Shown in pieces: positions 462 through 15,360 of a stretch of DNA of 26,262 nucleotides. Numbering within the stretch: the first letter of the stretch is position 1; the number at the start of each line of letters is the position of its first letter. The notes below the pieces were generated by a model. That model was not told the origin of the DNA. It was given only the letters and a program-made list of their open reading frames with translations, and searched no databases. Made by a program: the position numbers and the translations under genes. The DNA lies in IMG/VR virus record IMGVR_UViG_3300021091_000364, positions 1 to 26,262 of that record; one strand, given 5' to 3'. The stretch comes from a virus.

Positions 462-899
462 CTAATTGGTACTTAATCGGTAAGAATTTTCCAGTAAACC
501 AGGTGCGACCCAGTAGTTAATCCTTTTATTGCCAAACTTGTTTGGCTTGACTTCAGACAAGTAATTCGCCAAAGGCTTGTACAAACCTTTTGGATCCCAA
601 TTAACTTGCTCTTCCACATGCTGAACAGCTTTAATCACCGATGAATAGTCCATGCCAAAGGCAGAACCAATCGTACAAAAGTTAAATCCATCCTTCACTC
701 TGAGCATATACCAAACCATCCTCCGGAGAGTGTTAATGGGCTTGGTCCTCTTCTTGGAGAAGATGTCGTCCAACGTAAATCTCTTCTTAATCAAGACTGG
801 TTTTTTATCGCCATTAGAGCGATAGAACACGCATCTAGACTCAAACAGGTTGAAGTACAACTCTATTCTATCGTGTATATCGTGCTGAAAATCAATCAC
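462..899 (-). CDS. DnaA domain IV-like DNA-binding protein
   Basis: A 145-residue protein. Residues about 57-96 match the helix-turn-helix of DnaA domain IV: the basic helix TLRRMVWYML is followed by IGSAFGMDYSSVIKAVQHVEE, equivalent to the DnaA signature IG-x-x-FGGRDHTTVLHA-x-x-KIE. In DnaA this helix reads the DnaA box. Here the second Gly of FGG, the Arg and the His of the signature are replaced (M-D-Y), so binding specificity is probably altered. There is no AAA+ ATPase domain, so this is not an initiator by itself. It could be a decoy or regulator of host DnaA, or a phage origin-binding protein (inference). The ATG at 899 overlaps the stop of the upstream gene (ATGA), which indicates translational coupling. 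Confidence 0.85.
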   Translation of the reverse strand: MIDFQHDIHDRIELYFNLFESRCVFYRSNGDKKPVLIKKRFTLDDIFSKKRTKPINTLRRMVWYMLRVKDGFNFCTIGSAFGMDYSSVIKAVQHVEEQVNWDPKGLYKPLANYLSEVKPNKFGNKRINYWVAPGLLENSYRLSTN

Positions 900-5912: not shown

Positions 5913-6410
5913 TTATGGGATTAGTTTATACTTGCGTCCGTTGTGTTCAATGGTTTCAGGTGTGCGCTTGTCTATGATTCTGCCTTTTGAATCTTCAAAA
6001 TAGCTTTGATTAAATTCAGAATCCCATTCCATCTTTGCCCAATATCCATCTGAATACTCACGGTAGACTTCCATGCCTTTAGAATCGTATTCCCACTTTT
6101 CCCAAGTTCCATCGGAATACTTAATAGAGATTAGATTGCCTTGAGAATCATATTCCTTCCTATACCAATATTTATTTGAAGTCTCATGGTAGATTTCGTC
6201 ACTTTCAGAATTGTATTTCCACTTTTCCCAATCCCCACCTGAATCCTCAATACGGGTTAGATTACCTTTAGAATCGTATTCCGACTTTACCCAAAATCCA
6301 TCTGAATACTCAGCGTAGATTTTTTTACCATCCTTGTTCAGGATTTTTATCTCACCATTCACCTCAAAATCCCACTTCAGCCATTGGCCGATTGTTTTTT
6401 TGTTTTCCAT
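5913..6410 (-). CDS. Tandem 21-residue repeat protein
   Basis: A 165-residue protein built from five consecutive 21-residue repeats, residues about 35-140, with the consensus S-D-G-x-W-x-K-x-E-Y-D-S-K-G-N-x-x-x-x-E-Y, plus degenerate half-units at both ends. It ends NGRKYKLIP. The Y-D-S-x-G-N core recalls YD/RHS-type beta repeats and MORN-like strand hairpins, which form extended beta structures for binding. No enzyme motif or export signal is visible. The repeats are diverged in DNA, so the array is old rather than a recent slippage product. It has its own near-consensus promoter, unlike most neighbours, so it may be expressed separately. The partner it binds is unknown. Confidence 0.85.
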   Translation of the reverse strand: MENKKTIGQWLKWDFEVNGEIKILNKDGKKIYAEYSDGFWVKSEYDSKGNLTRIEDSGGDWEKWKYNSESDEIYHETSNKYWYRKEYDSQGNLISIKYSDGTWEKWEYDSKGMEVYREYSDGYWAKMEWDSEFNQSYFEDSKGRIIDKRTPETIEHNGRKYKLIP

Positions 6411-12269: not shown

Positions 12270-12710
12270 TTAGAGTAGTCCTTTTTCCCTGAATGATAGG
12301 AATGAGTCTTCAGTTAGGATAATGTGGTCGATTACGTCAATGTCCAAGTACGAGAGTGCTTGGGATATTTTCTTGGTTAGTTCTTTGTCTTGTGGGGATG
12401 CGTCTGTGTTTCCGCTTGGATGGTTGTGCACCAAGATTACCCCACTGCAAAGGGAGTCCACTGCTAGTTTGCAGACGATTTTGGGGTCTACAACGGTTGC
12501 CGATACGCCTCCTTGGGATATTTTGGCGTATGCAATGGTCTTATTTGCTCGGTTCAGCATGATGATAAAGAAGGATTCGTACAGGACTAGGTCTTCATGG
12601 TAGAACTGCCGAGCATACTCAACGGATGCCCACGGATTTTGGATTTTAACTTGCTCGAATGGGGATGTCTCGGCTACCGAGGTAATCCTGCGGAGGGATG
12701 CGTACTTCAT
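12270..12710 (-). CDS. radC: RadC-like JAB/MPN domain protein
   Basis: A 146-residue RadC/JAB domain. Glu45 lies in VLYESFF, and the metal ligands are in HNHPSGNTDASPQD (residues about 95-108, H95, H97 and D108 with S105), giving the E, H-x-H-x(n)-S-x-x-D JAMM pattern. All catalytic ligands are present. Full-length host RadC has an N-terminal helix-hairpin-helix region; here it is absent, as is common in phage and plasmid versions. RadC is not a proven repair enzyme; the JAMM fold in other settings is a metallo-isopeptidase. The function in the phage is unknown, perhaps connected with recombination or conjugative/anti-defence islands. The ATG follows CCCCTAAATCCTTAATGTA. Confidence 0.9.
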   Translation of the reverse strand: MKYASLRRITSVAETSPFEQVKIQNPWASVEYARQFYHEDLVLYESFFIIMLNRANKTIAYAKISQGGVSATVVDPKIVCKLAVDSLCSGVILVHNHPSGNTDASPQDKELTKKISQALSYLDIDVIDHIILTEDSFLSFREKGLL

Positions 12711-13001: not shown

Positions 13002-13886
13002 TCATCGTGCGATGCGGATGTGGTCGCTGTCAAAGGTAGTGTAGTCGGTATCCTCTAAACTATCCTCTAAACTATCCTCTAAACTTTGTTCGTATTGTTC
13101 TATTATTTCTTTGTCGGCTTCGCATTTCTCGGTATGTCTTAAGATCTTTTCAAACATAGCACGAAGCACAAACGAAGGGACATTAGACGAAACGAGGTAG
13201 GGTTTAGCCTTGTTTTTAGGGCTGTGTATAATGTTTAGTGTAATATCTTCCCTTACATCATTCTCAAATCCAAATAATACGGGATTAAATAAATACCTTG
13301 CTTCATTTGGCCTTGCTTCGGCCTTGGCTTCGGCTTGGCTTGTTCCCTTGGCTTCGGCTTGTTCCTTGGCCTTGGCTTCGGCTTTGGCTTTGGCTTCGGC
13401 TTGTTTCTTTAACCTATCGTTTTCTTTCCTATTTTCTTCGGCTTGTTGTTGCTCCTCACTTGGATAAATTTCTTCGCCTTTAAGGAATTTTGTTAATGCG
13501 TCTATGCCGTAGTTTACTTTTGAGCCGTTATTAATACGGCTTTGGTTCAATTTCTTAAAGTTTGCAACGGCTTCGGCTTCGGCTTCATCCAAGGCCTTGG
13601 CCAAGCCTATGTATTTTTTCACCATAGGCAAACTAAATTTCAAGGCTTTGCTCAATTCTTCTTGCTTTAATTGTTTGTTCGCAATTTGCGAAGCAGTTAA
13701 AACAAGTTTGGAGCGTTTTATTGTATTGTCTAAAACTTGCTCAAAATTTCGCAAACTACTTAAAGAGTCCTTTGCGCTTAGTTCTTCCAAGGCTTTCACT
13801 ACTTTGTAGAATTTGAGCCTTAAGGCTTCGGTTTTGAAAGTATAATGCATTATACTTTCGTTTGGGTTTTGGGTTTGGGTTTTCAT
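13002..13886 (-). CDS. HTH protein with coiled coil, probable autoregulator
   Basis: A 294-residue protein starting MKTQTQNPNESIMHYTFKTE. Residues about 63-98 (LTASQIANKQLKQEELSKALKFSLPMVKKYIGLAKA) fit a ParB/KorB-like helix-turn-helix. A charged, alanine-rich coiled coil with K-A/E-A repeats follows (about 150-195). A globular C-terminal part contains EDITLNIIHSPKN and PYLVSSNVPSFVLRAMFEKI, and a triple LEDS-type repeat comes from three 12-bp tandem units (13049-13084). A 24-bp perfect palindrome (13836-13859) lies inside codons 11-19, and a partner lies upstream of its promoter. That arrangement suggests the protein binds both and represses itself. Partition or replication roles are alternatives. 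It is the first leftward gene from the divergence region and is closed by a strong terminator. Confidence 0.8.
   Translation of the reverse strand: MKTQTQNPNESIMHYTFKTEALRLKFYKVVKALEELSAKDSLSSLRNFEQVLDNTIKRSKLVLTASQIANKQLKQEELSKALKFSLPMVKKYIGLAKALDEAEAEAVANFKKLNQSRINNGSKVNYGIDALTKFLKGEEIYPSEEQQQAEENRKENDRLKKQAEAKAKAEAKAKEQAEAKGTSQAEAKAEARPNEARYLFNPVLFGFENDVREDITLNIIHSPKNKAKPYLVSSNVPSFVLRAMFEKILRHTEKCEADKEIIEQYEQSLEDSLEDSLEDTDYTTFDSDHIRIAR
13049..13084. repeat. Three 12-bp tandem repeats
   Basis: TATCCTCTAAAC is repeated three times without gaps and encodes the S-L-E-D repeat near the C-terminus of the 13002-13886 protein. The length is a multiple of three, so copy-number changes would keep the frame. 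Confidence 0.9.
13836..13859. promoter_or_regulatory. 24-bp perfect palindrome, operator candidate 1
   Basis: A perfect palindrome with half-site GAAAGTATAATG lies in the first codons of the HTH gene. Its central 18 bp, plus TTTC on the right, recur at 13997-14017. Confidence 0.8.
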
Positions 13887-13946
13887 GATATAGGTATTAA
13901 TAGGGTTAAAATTTGATTTAATACTACATTTCTTAAATCATTAAAA

Positions 13947-13978
13947 CAAAGGTAAGGAATAAATTTCAATTATCCAAA
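13947..13978 (-). promoter_or_regulatory. Leftward promoter, near-perfect consensus
   Basis: On the minus strand, TTTG (13978-13975) is followed after 20 nt by TACCTTTG (13954-13947), matching the Bacteroidota -33/-7 consensus. The start would be near 13941, giving a leader of about 55 nt before the ATG at 13886. It is bracketed by the two palindromes. Confidence 0.75.
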
Positions 13979-13996
13979 TTTTTTTTCAATTATTTT

Positions 13997-14017
13997 AGTA
14001 TAATGCATTATACTTTC
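13997..14017. promoter_or_regulatory. Palindrome, operator candidate 2
   Basis: An 18-bp perfect palindrome (13997-14014) shares 21 bp with the palindrome at 13836-13859. The two centres are about 158 bp apart, close to 15 helical turns at 10.5 bp per turn. Confidence 0.8.
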
Positions 14018-14021
14018 CGGC

Positions 14022-14058
14022 TGTCCACTATTTTGGACACTGTCCATTTTATTGGACA
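14022..14058. promoter_or_regulatory. Tandem TGTCCA-N6-TGGACA inverted repeats
   Basis: Two identical-architecture sites lie 19 bp apart: TGTCCA-CTATTT-TGGACA (14022-14039) and TGTCCA-TTTTAT-TGGACA (14041-14058). Only the 6-bp centre differs. This is the signature of a dimeric regulator or initiator binding site. Confidence 0.8.
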
Positions 14059-14094
14059 CAATTACTTTTCAACCTAACCAATCAAAAAATGATA

Positions 14095-14350
14095 GTGTTA
14101 TAACACAAGATAAATTCAGTTTTACTTTTGGGCAATATGGCAAAAGGAAATAGGGATATGTAATTTGTTACAACACAAGATCAATTCATTTTTGTGTTTA
14201 GTGTTACCAACACTGAACACATTCCCTAATCCTTGTTTTGTTTGTTTTGTGTTACCAACACAATACGAACAAAACGATTTAGGTATGCTCGTCCCTTTGT
14301 ACATAACAACAGACACACTAACCCTATTGTTTACAATGTGTTATATAACA
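14095..14350. repeat. Family of GTGTTA-type palindromes
   Basis: Five related sites: GTGTTATAACAC (14095-14106), TTGTTACAACAC (14165-14176), GTGTTACCAACAC (14201-14213), GTGTTACCAACAC (14249-14261) and TGTTATATAACA (14339-14350). The first two sit at the heads of imperfect 29-bp direct repeats (14095-14123 and 14165-14193). The series looks like operators or origin iterons. Confidence 0.7.
14123..14130 (+). promoter_or_regulatory. Possible rightward -7 box
   Basis: A perfect TACTTTTG lies 16 bp after the GTGTTATAACAC palindrome, which covers the expected -33 position. There is no TTG there, so this is weak. A tiny frame MAKGNRDM (14137-14163) follows at a leaderless distance; I do not call it a gene. 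Confidence 0.35.
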
Positions 14351-14660
14351 ATAGTTAGACGGCTAATGGATTGTTTACTGACTGACAGCAAGAGGGGGGA
14401 GTGCTTTCCGAACGACCGGATCGAGCCGGAGGATGGGGGGGTATGCCCAAATTTCCATTTACTCAAAATTTACGCTTATTATGCCAAAATTTCCATTTTG
14501 TAGTACCACCGTCAGCTTTAGGCTGACGATTTGACTACAATTAGTTTACAGTATTGTTGCATTGTAAACAAACTTGTCAGATTTTGGCTACTAATTCGGA
14601 ATAATTCCGACTTAACGTGCCTTTTAAGGCACGAAATGGTTCAATAAGGGCGTAGCCGCC
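14351..14660. other. Gene-free segment with nested hairpin
   Basis: No gene was recognised here. It contains a direct repeat around AAATTTCCATTT (about 14449-14460 and 14488-14498) and a nested hairpin TTGTAGT-ACCAC-CGTCAGC-loop-GCTGACG-ATTTG-ACTACAA (14498-14540) with symmetric 5-nt internal loops. It also holds GTTTACA/TGTAAAC arms (about 14546-14571), TCGGAAT-A-ATTCCGA (14596-14610) and CGTGCCTT/AAGGCACG (14616-14633). An AAGGGCG/CGCCCTT hairpin (14646-14663) and GTTACA/TGTAAC (14673-14687) follow. Confidence 0.6.
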
Positions 14661-14840
14661 CTTGTTGGACTGGTTACAAGCTGTAACAGGTTGTGGTACC
14701 GATTGGGATTATGGGAATTGCACTAAAGTACAATCCCCAAAAATGTGTTCATATCTCTATATAAGAGTGTTTTTGGGTGATTTGAAAATAGTGCCTCTAC
14801 GCTATCAAAAACAGCGTTTTTTACCCCTTCAAAAAGTGAC

Positions 14841-14882
14841 AATGTGGTAAGAATCCACCAAAAATGTGGTAAGAATCCACCA
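14841..14882. repeat. Tandem 20-bp repeat upstream of rep-like gene
   Basis: The same 20-bp sequence (AATGTGGTAAGAATCCACCA) occurs at 14841-14860 and 14863-14882, a 22-bp period (about two helical turns). Each copy contains the inverted repeat GTGG-N7-CCAC. It lies about 45-85 bp before the initiator gene, suiting an autoregulatory or origin site. Confidence 0.85.
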
Positions 14883-14913
14883 CAAATTGAGAAACAATTT
14901 TATCAAAAATGGT

Positions 14914-14921
14914 TATATTTG
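14914..14921 (+). promoter_or_regulatory. -7 box for a leaderless rep-like mRNA
   Basis: A perfect TATATTTG ends five bases before the ATG at 14926. In Bacteroidota the start of transcription lies a few bases after this box, so the mRNA would begin at or very near the ATG. The best TTG (14887-14889) is 24 nt upstream, longer than usual. Confidence 0.6.
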
Positions 14922-14925
14922 TAAC

Positions 14926-15360
14926 ATGGCAAGGTATTCTAGGAGGAGGGATTTGGTAGACCCAGATACAGGGGAGTTATTTTTTGCAGATGAGCGAATA
15001 AGCGTTATTGGCAGGGCAAATTGGGACAACGGAAGGTTCGTCAAGTTGTTTATGCCCGGTGTAGACGTTTTAATCCGTTTTAAGCCATCCGAATTGGTTT
15101 TGGTAACGTATGTACTCTCCAAGTTAAAACGCGGCTCTAGAGAGCTGCAATTGAGTTTTCAGAGGTACAACGACTGGCATGAGATGTGCTTCTCTAAGCC
15201 TATGGATAGATCCGCGTACCACAAGGCGGTGAACGCATTGGTAAGAGAGGGATTGCTTGTGAAGGCTGGGAAAGACTACCTAATCAACCACAAGATGGCT
15301 TTTGTGGGGGATAGGACAAAGTTTTTGTATTTGGATAGCCAAATTGGGAAACTAACTTAG
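14926..15360 (+). CDS. RepL-like winged-helix replication protein
   Basis: From the ATG at 14926 this encodes 144 residues starting MARYSRRRDLVDPDTGELFF; the open frame extends upstream but crosses the repeats. The N-terminal V-D-x-D-T-G-E-L motif, then RFVKLFMPGVDVLI, a helical LVLVTYVLSKLKRGSRELQL and a winged helix (RSAYHKAVNALVREGLLVKAGKDYLINHKMAFVGDR) follow the pattern of RepL-type plasmid and phage replication initiators: a D-T-G-E opening, a helix-turn-helix, and a final Y-x-I-N-x-x-x-x-F-x-G-D-R wing. Such proteins bind iterons at an origin. The tandem repeats and palindromes just upstream fit. It could alternatively be a transcription regulator. Confidence 0.75.
   Translation: MARYSRRRDLVDPDTGELFFADERISVIGRANWDNGRFVKLFMPGVDVLIRFKPSELVLVTYVLSKLKRGSRELQLSFQRYNDWHEMCFSKPMDRSAYHKAVNALVREGLLVKAGKDYLINHKMAFVGDRTKFLYLDSQIGKLT

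Follow-up and report, generated by a model that had tools for sequence, protein, structure and literature searches.

Between its two oppositely directed gene arms, the window (the whole stretch of DNA analysed here, a single 26,262-base record taken from a collection of viral contigs) carries a conserved control region with several families of DNA sites. The region is the 1,039-bp non-coding divergence (13887-14925, AT-rich at 35% GC) between L1, which runs leftward, and R1, which runs rightward, and contains no fewer than four site families (A, B, C and D), with a pattern across relatives that differs from one family to the next. We favour, with moderate confidence, the view that this divergence is a combined transcription and replication control hub, and we infer that L1 would act on family A and R1 on family D, that a multi-site complex would assemble on family C and that replication would start here. 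Replication control at the hub is likely because the adjoining gene is predicted to be of RepL type. The sequence-only reading had described two site families, to which A and D are additional, and had suggested that at least two DNA-binding proteins meet in this region; this suggestion is supported by the four or more site families and by the flanking predicted DNA-binding proteins, the prediction being fair for R1 and weak for L1.

The predicted terminase, portal and SU10-type major capsid protein place the window in a tailed phage, as a fragment of its genome. Among named phages, the portal and the terminase find their best matches in crAss-like and Flavobacterium phages, with an identity of about 22-25% that indicates a distant crAss-like relative rather than a close member; the capsid protein had no match, and direct tblastn of R1 and L1 against named phages returned no matches. 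The host group is probably Bacteroidota, and a pattern-based search of 84,980 bacterial and archaeal genomes with the terminase and portal queries found no relative and no host. Relatives were retrieved with R1, terminase and capsid queries, and an exact 17-mer scan of viral contigs gave six matches, two of them already-known relatives. Two are used repeatedly below: G002, of 61.8 kb, and G001 (L052; 71 kb), which looks near complete because its gene order runs on across both ends when compared with G002. Genes of the window are directed mostly leftward to the left of 13.9 kb and rightward to the right of 14.9 kb. The leftward genes include a RadC-like JAB protein (12270-12710, minus strand), present in relatives too, and a short-repeat protein (WEKWEYDSKG-like; 5913-6410, minus strand) with a shorter relative in G001. 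G001 also encodes three consecutive paralogue-like proteins of 426-453 aa (L052:11631-15609), likely surface proteins, with a similar trio at 0.9-4.9 kb of G002.

The general layout of the hub is shared: in relatives that cover both genes, an L1-type gene of 275-314 aa and R1 diverge around 1.1-2.1 kb of non-coding DNA. In distant groups the hub DNA hardly aligns, yet the TGTGTTA core of family C and a 14-mer are kept. The 14-mer and a second conserved block lie at:
14364-14377, plus strand: 14-mer TAATGGATTGTTTA, directly following the final palindrome of family C on the side of R1, found in relatives covering the stretch (in L016 and L031 the alignment puts it in another column)
14785-14822, plus strand: conserved block AAAATAGTGCCTCTACGCTATCAAAAACAGCGTTTTTT, about 105-140 bp upstream of R1
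Two hairpin-like inverted repeats, CGTCAGCTTTAGGCTGACG (14510-14528) and CGTGCCTTTTAAGGCACG (14616-14633), lie between the family C array and R1 and are largely kept in close relatives.

Family C consists of five GTGTTA-type palindromes, all of them present where the sequence-only reading had placed them (unstranded):
14095-14106: palindrome GTGTTATAACAC
14166-14175: palindrome TGTTACAACA, at the start of the second copy of a 28-nt repeat
14201-14213: palindrome GTGTTACCAACAC
14249-14261: palindrome GTGTTACCAACAC
14339-14350: palindrome TGTTATATAACA, kept in most relatives covering the stretch
Direct repeats had also been reported, with a length of 29 bp; the repeats exist, and their actual lengths are 28 nt (14096-14123 and 14166-14193, 89% identical) and 25 nt (14189-14213 and 14237-14261, 88%). 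The non-coding region contains the pattern TGTT-N2-4-AACA five times, with 0.32 occurrences expected and none of 1000 exact dinucleotide shuffles reaching that number; the remaining 25 kb of the window contain it once. In all 10 relatives tested, as in the window, family C palindromes are more frequent than in such shuffles (0/1000, or 1/1000 for L026). It is very improbable that the palindromes of the hub are chance products without function in AT-rich non-coding DNA: the low GC content would favour such an origin, as would the TGTTA half-sites taken alone, which are not significant in the window hub (10 against 5.75 expected, 60/1000 shuffles), but the shuffles, the conservation in relatives and the co-varying copies contradict it for families A, C and D.

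Half-sites alone are significant in relatives with larger arrays. In the group of L010, L014, L015, L016 and L031 the region contains 38-40 TGTTA half-sites, where about 12 would be expected, and 17-19 copies of TGTGTTA, where the expectation is about 1. L023 carries 32 half-sites (13 expected), many of them at steps of 47-52 bp; the counts for L019 and L020 are 22 and 19, with about 8 expected. The sequence-only reading had regarded sites scattered through the genome as an argument against its interpretation; they cluster at the hub, most clearly in G002, where the 1-kb bins of the hub (30-33 kb) hold 16, 23 and 27 half-sites and bins elsewhere 0-6. Family C in the window is a small version of this large clustered array, and L026 and L028 also carry a reduced one. 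We propose that a protein of conserved DNA specificity, either R1 or a nucleoid-type factor of host or phage, would build a multi-site nucleoprotein complex on family C and that this complex may couple the choice of arm to DNA copying. A DnaA-type binder was discarded: the core is not a DnaA box, and PF08299 was not found in the near-complete G001. A protein with DnaA domain IV (PF08299) is predicted at 462-899 (minus strand) of the window, and PF08299 proteins also occur in G002-G005.

On the leftward side, L1 and the elements around its start are arranged as follows:
13002-13886, minus strand: L1, 294 aa, with a predicted HTH-like N-terminal domain, a coiled coil and a C-terminal alpha/beta part
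13836-13859, unstranded: family A copy 1, a 24-bp perfect palindrome within the first L1 codons, with AGTATAATGCATTATACT at 13839
13947-13954, minus strand: TACCTTTG, a Bacteroidota-type -7 box for L1, with TTTG (13975-13978, minus strand) 20 bp upstream
13997-14014, unstranded: family A copy 2, AGTATAATGCATTATACT, upstream of the L1 promoter-like boxes and 158 bp away from the first copy
The promoter-like boxes, here and upstream of R1, were read from the sequence against the known consensus TTTG/TAnnTTTG. AGTATAATGCATTATACT occurs only twice in the window, and its two copies bracket the boxes of L1. The same two positions are occupied by GGATAATGCATTATC(C/T) in L026 and by TTCTACCGCGGTAGAA in L019, with copy starts relative to the L1 start of -47/+111, -49/+114 and -45/+124 in the three phages: the sequence of family A varies among phages, and the copies within a phage match with 0-2 mismatches. 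In L028, whose L1 is about 30% identical, the coding copy is a different perfect palindrome and there is none upstream. The simplest reading is that the family A sites are operators of a self-controlling regulator whose specificity changes along with them. We infer that L1 is this regulator; it would bind the identical pair around its own promoter and control itself.

The nature of L1 bears on a different proposal, namely that L1 is ParB-like and the TGTGTTA array a parS-type, centromere-like partition site keeping the phage genome as a low-copy plasmid. L1 matches no sequence family, nor ParB in Pfam or among PDB sequences; its structural model has a confident N-terminal helical part with weak fold matches to ParB/Spo0J DNA-binding domains (E 0.28-1.1), so that a ParB/Spo0J-like DNA-binding protein is a lead only. 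These fold matches, the arrays of L023, which are long, clustered and stepped at about 49 bp, and the RepL-type gene next door are consistent with partition. We nevertheless consider it quite unlikely: no ParA (PF13614) was found over the cut-off in six records, one of them near complete and the others incomplete contigs, and L1 and its likely palindromes vary, in contrast to the conserved core of family C. For this latter reason L1 is also a poor candidate for binding family C and was rejected as first choice, since it diverges strongly and the TGTGTTA core is constant. L1 proteins of distant groups are 13-18% identical to that of the window, and at this level they are equivalents by place and outline, not proven homologues.

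Next to the upstream family A copy lie the two family B sites, both of them exact TGTCCA-N6-TGGACA matches, as had been described:
14022-14039, unstranded: family B copy 1, TGTCCACTATTTTGGACA
14041-14058, unstranded: family B copy 2, TGTCCATTTTATTGGACA, 19 bp on
The start-to-start distance is 19 bp and the window holds no third exact match. Only two relatives keep family B: L026 has one exact site and a second in which one arm is changed, and L028 has one exact site. In the other relative groups it is absent from the same place. The TGTCCA pair may be a further operator limited to closer relatives.

On the rightward side, R1 is preceded by a tandem repeat and a promoter-like box:
14839-14882, unstranded: family D, a 22-bp tandem repeat in two copies, ACAATGTGGTAAGAATCCACCA and AAAATGTGGTAAGAATCCACCA
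14914-14921, plus strand: TATATTTG, a TAnnTTTG-type -7 box whose end lies 4 nt ahead of the R1 ATG
14926-15360, plus strand: R1, a predicted RepL-type, winged-helix, initiator-like protein of 144 aa and the first gene of the structural arm
The ATG at 14926 was taken as the R1 start instead of the mechanical GTG start at 14866, and most relatives have a -7-type box at a like place. The family D element is 21-22 bp long, with GTGG and CCAC-like arms. In 11 of 13 sequences two tandem copies of it are present, beginning 79-108 bp ahead of the R1 ATG; copies from one phage share 77-95% identity, and the sequence changes from one phage group to another. The self-match test missed the tandem of L023 and that of L021, whose two copies have diverged. 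R1 may bind the tandem just upstream of its own promoter, and it may start or control plasmid-style replication.

The assignment of R1 comes from sequence comparison and structure modelling: (i), an alignment of 13 sequences gave a winged-helix model (mean pLDDT 66, core blocks about 80-90, ends poor), for which a PDB fold search returned generic winged helices only; (ii), a Foldseek search of the viral structure library BFVD placed RepL and crAss replication proteins among the matches (E 1e-4 to 5e-3), one of each being included in the five matches at E <= 0.001; (iii), tblastn against 72,556 plasmids gave eight matching records, all with coverage of at least 89% of R1 and individually weak (E 1e-3 to 0.3), two of which carry a RepL annotation; (iv), of six plasmid proteins scanned, five match Pfam RepL, and two of these exceed the cut-off, and (v), hhalign of the R1 profile against the RepL plasmid proteins together gave 97.8% probability (E 8e-13). 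The Pfam RepL profile (PF05732) had no direct match to R1 or any member of its family, and we thus call R1 a RepL-type plasmid replication initiator and not a proven RepL.

With R1 adjoining the 22-bp tandem and the TGTTA array, the hub has one trait of a replication origin. GC skew, which had been suggested as a check, does not place an origin here: in the window, G001 and G002 alike the cumulative skew turns some 8-10 kb away from the hub, within the left arm, third-position skews show no clear switch at the hub, and placing the origin at the hub by skew was rejected. Since a skew turn is lacking at many phage origins, this result is only a mild argument against an origin. The turn lies at about 4-7 kb in the window, 21-22 kb in G002 and 58-61 kb in G001, in a zone of small ORFs on one strand inside the left arm, and it is possible that it marks the true origin or a composition boundary. 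The earlier proposal of a genetic switch or replication origin therefore stands in part: an origin is favoured by the RepL-type R1 and disfavoured by the skew, whereas a switch is plausible from the paired, co-varying L1 palindromes and is weakened in that neither integrase nor ParA turned up in the near-complete relative, nor any relative in the bacterial genomes searched. No integrase (PF00589) was found in six records, one near complete (the incomplete contigs limit the search), and no lysogeny module is shown.

The skew turn away from the hub is among the observations expected from a purely transcriptional switch, in which operators and divergent promoters would choose the arm and R1 would be a RepL-derived regulator with no replication start. 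Divergent arms with promoter-like boxes on both sides, the paired L1 palindromes and the position of R1 at the head of the structural arm, not of a replication arm, all fit this reading. It is possible but not probable, because RepL proteins are plasmid replication proteins (PMC7551546) and the 38-40 half-sites of some relatives exceed the usual need of two promoters. Rather unlikely, in our opinion, is a plasmid-type replicon in which the RepL-type protein would bind a long TGTGTTA array as the origin or copy-control element, L1 would be an autoregulator whose operator specificity changes among relatives in the manner of phage immunity groups, and the hub would switch between plasmid-like persistence and lysis.

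A combined control hub would belong to an already-known kind, that of divergent regulatory regions lying close to a RepL-type initiator, known from the vicinity of some crAss-like strand switches; what is new is the detail, the TGTGTTA array and the co-varying operator pair. The crAssphage reference encodes two RepL paralogues (PMC7551546) and Carjivirus communis is a putative phage-plasmid with repL (PMC11652158). In the crAss-like phage cr11_1, gp17 (L087:8746-9456, annotated hypothetical; RepL-like) aligns to the R1 profile (E 3.6e-5) and the control neighbour gp20 does not. As in the window, the RepL-type gene of cr11_1 lies near a non-coding strand switch, of 1.5 kb, but in the left arm, whereas R1 heads the structural arm. 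The cr11_1 gap shows no TGTGTTA array or enrichment and no paired operator, and was rejected as a homologous array for lack of TGTGTTA enrichment. RepL proteins of small plasmids (Paracoccus p5041, Sulfuriferula, Acidisoma, Comamonas) align over 89-92% of R1 at 23-30% identity; most of them have an N-terminal extension that R1 lacks, and R1 sits in a phage.

Two other systems invite comparison. Temperate-phage immunity regions (the lambda-like repressor and operators, N15/PY54) share with the hub divergent regulators, palindromic operators and a specificity that varies between relatives; they differ in that L1 matches no repressor family and no integrase or lysogeny module was found here. Iteron origins and DnaA-box clusters are likewise short-repeat clusters beside an initiator-type gene, but the spacing of family C is irregular or about 49 bp, its TGTGTTA core is no DnaA box and family D has two copies only.

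The hub bears on the persistence of crAss-like phages and their environmental relatives, for which RepL-based plasmid replication is one proposal (PMC11652158). Family A, both copies of which change together, is a natural experiment in the co-evolution of a regulator and its operators. The hub is a short and defined piece of DNA that combines a gene of initiator type, two sets of sites likely to serve autoregulation and an array that can be counted, and it is suited to direct origin, promoter and binding tests of how such phages switch their genes and start to copy their DNA.
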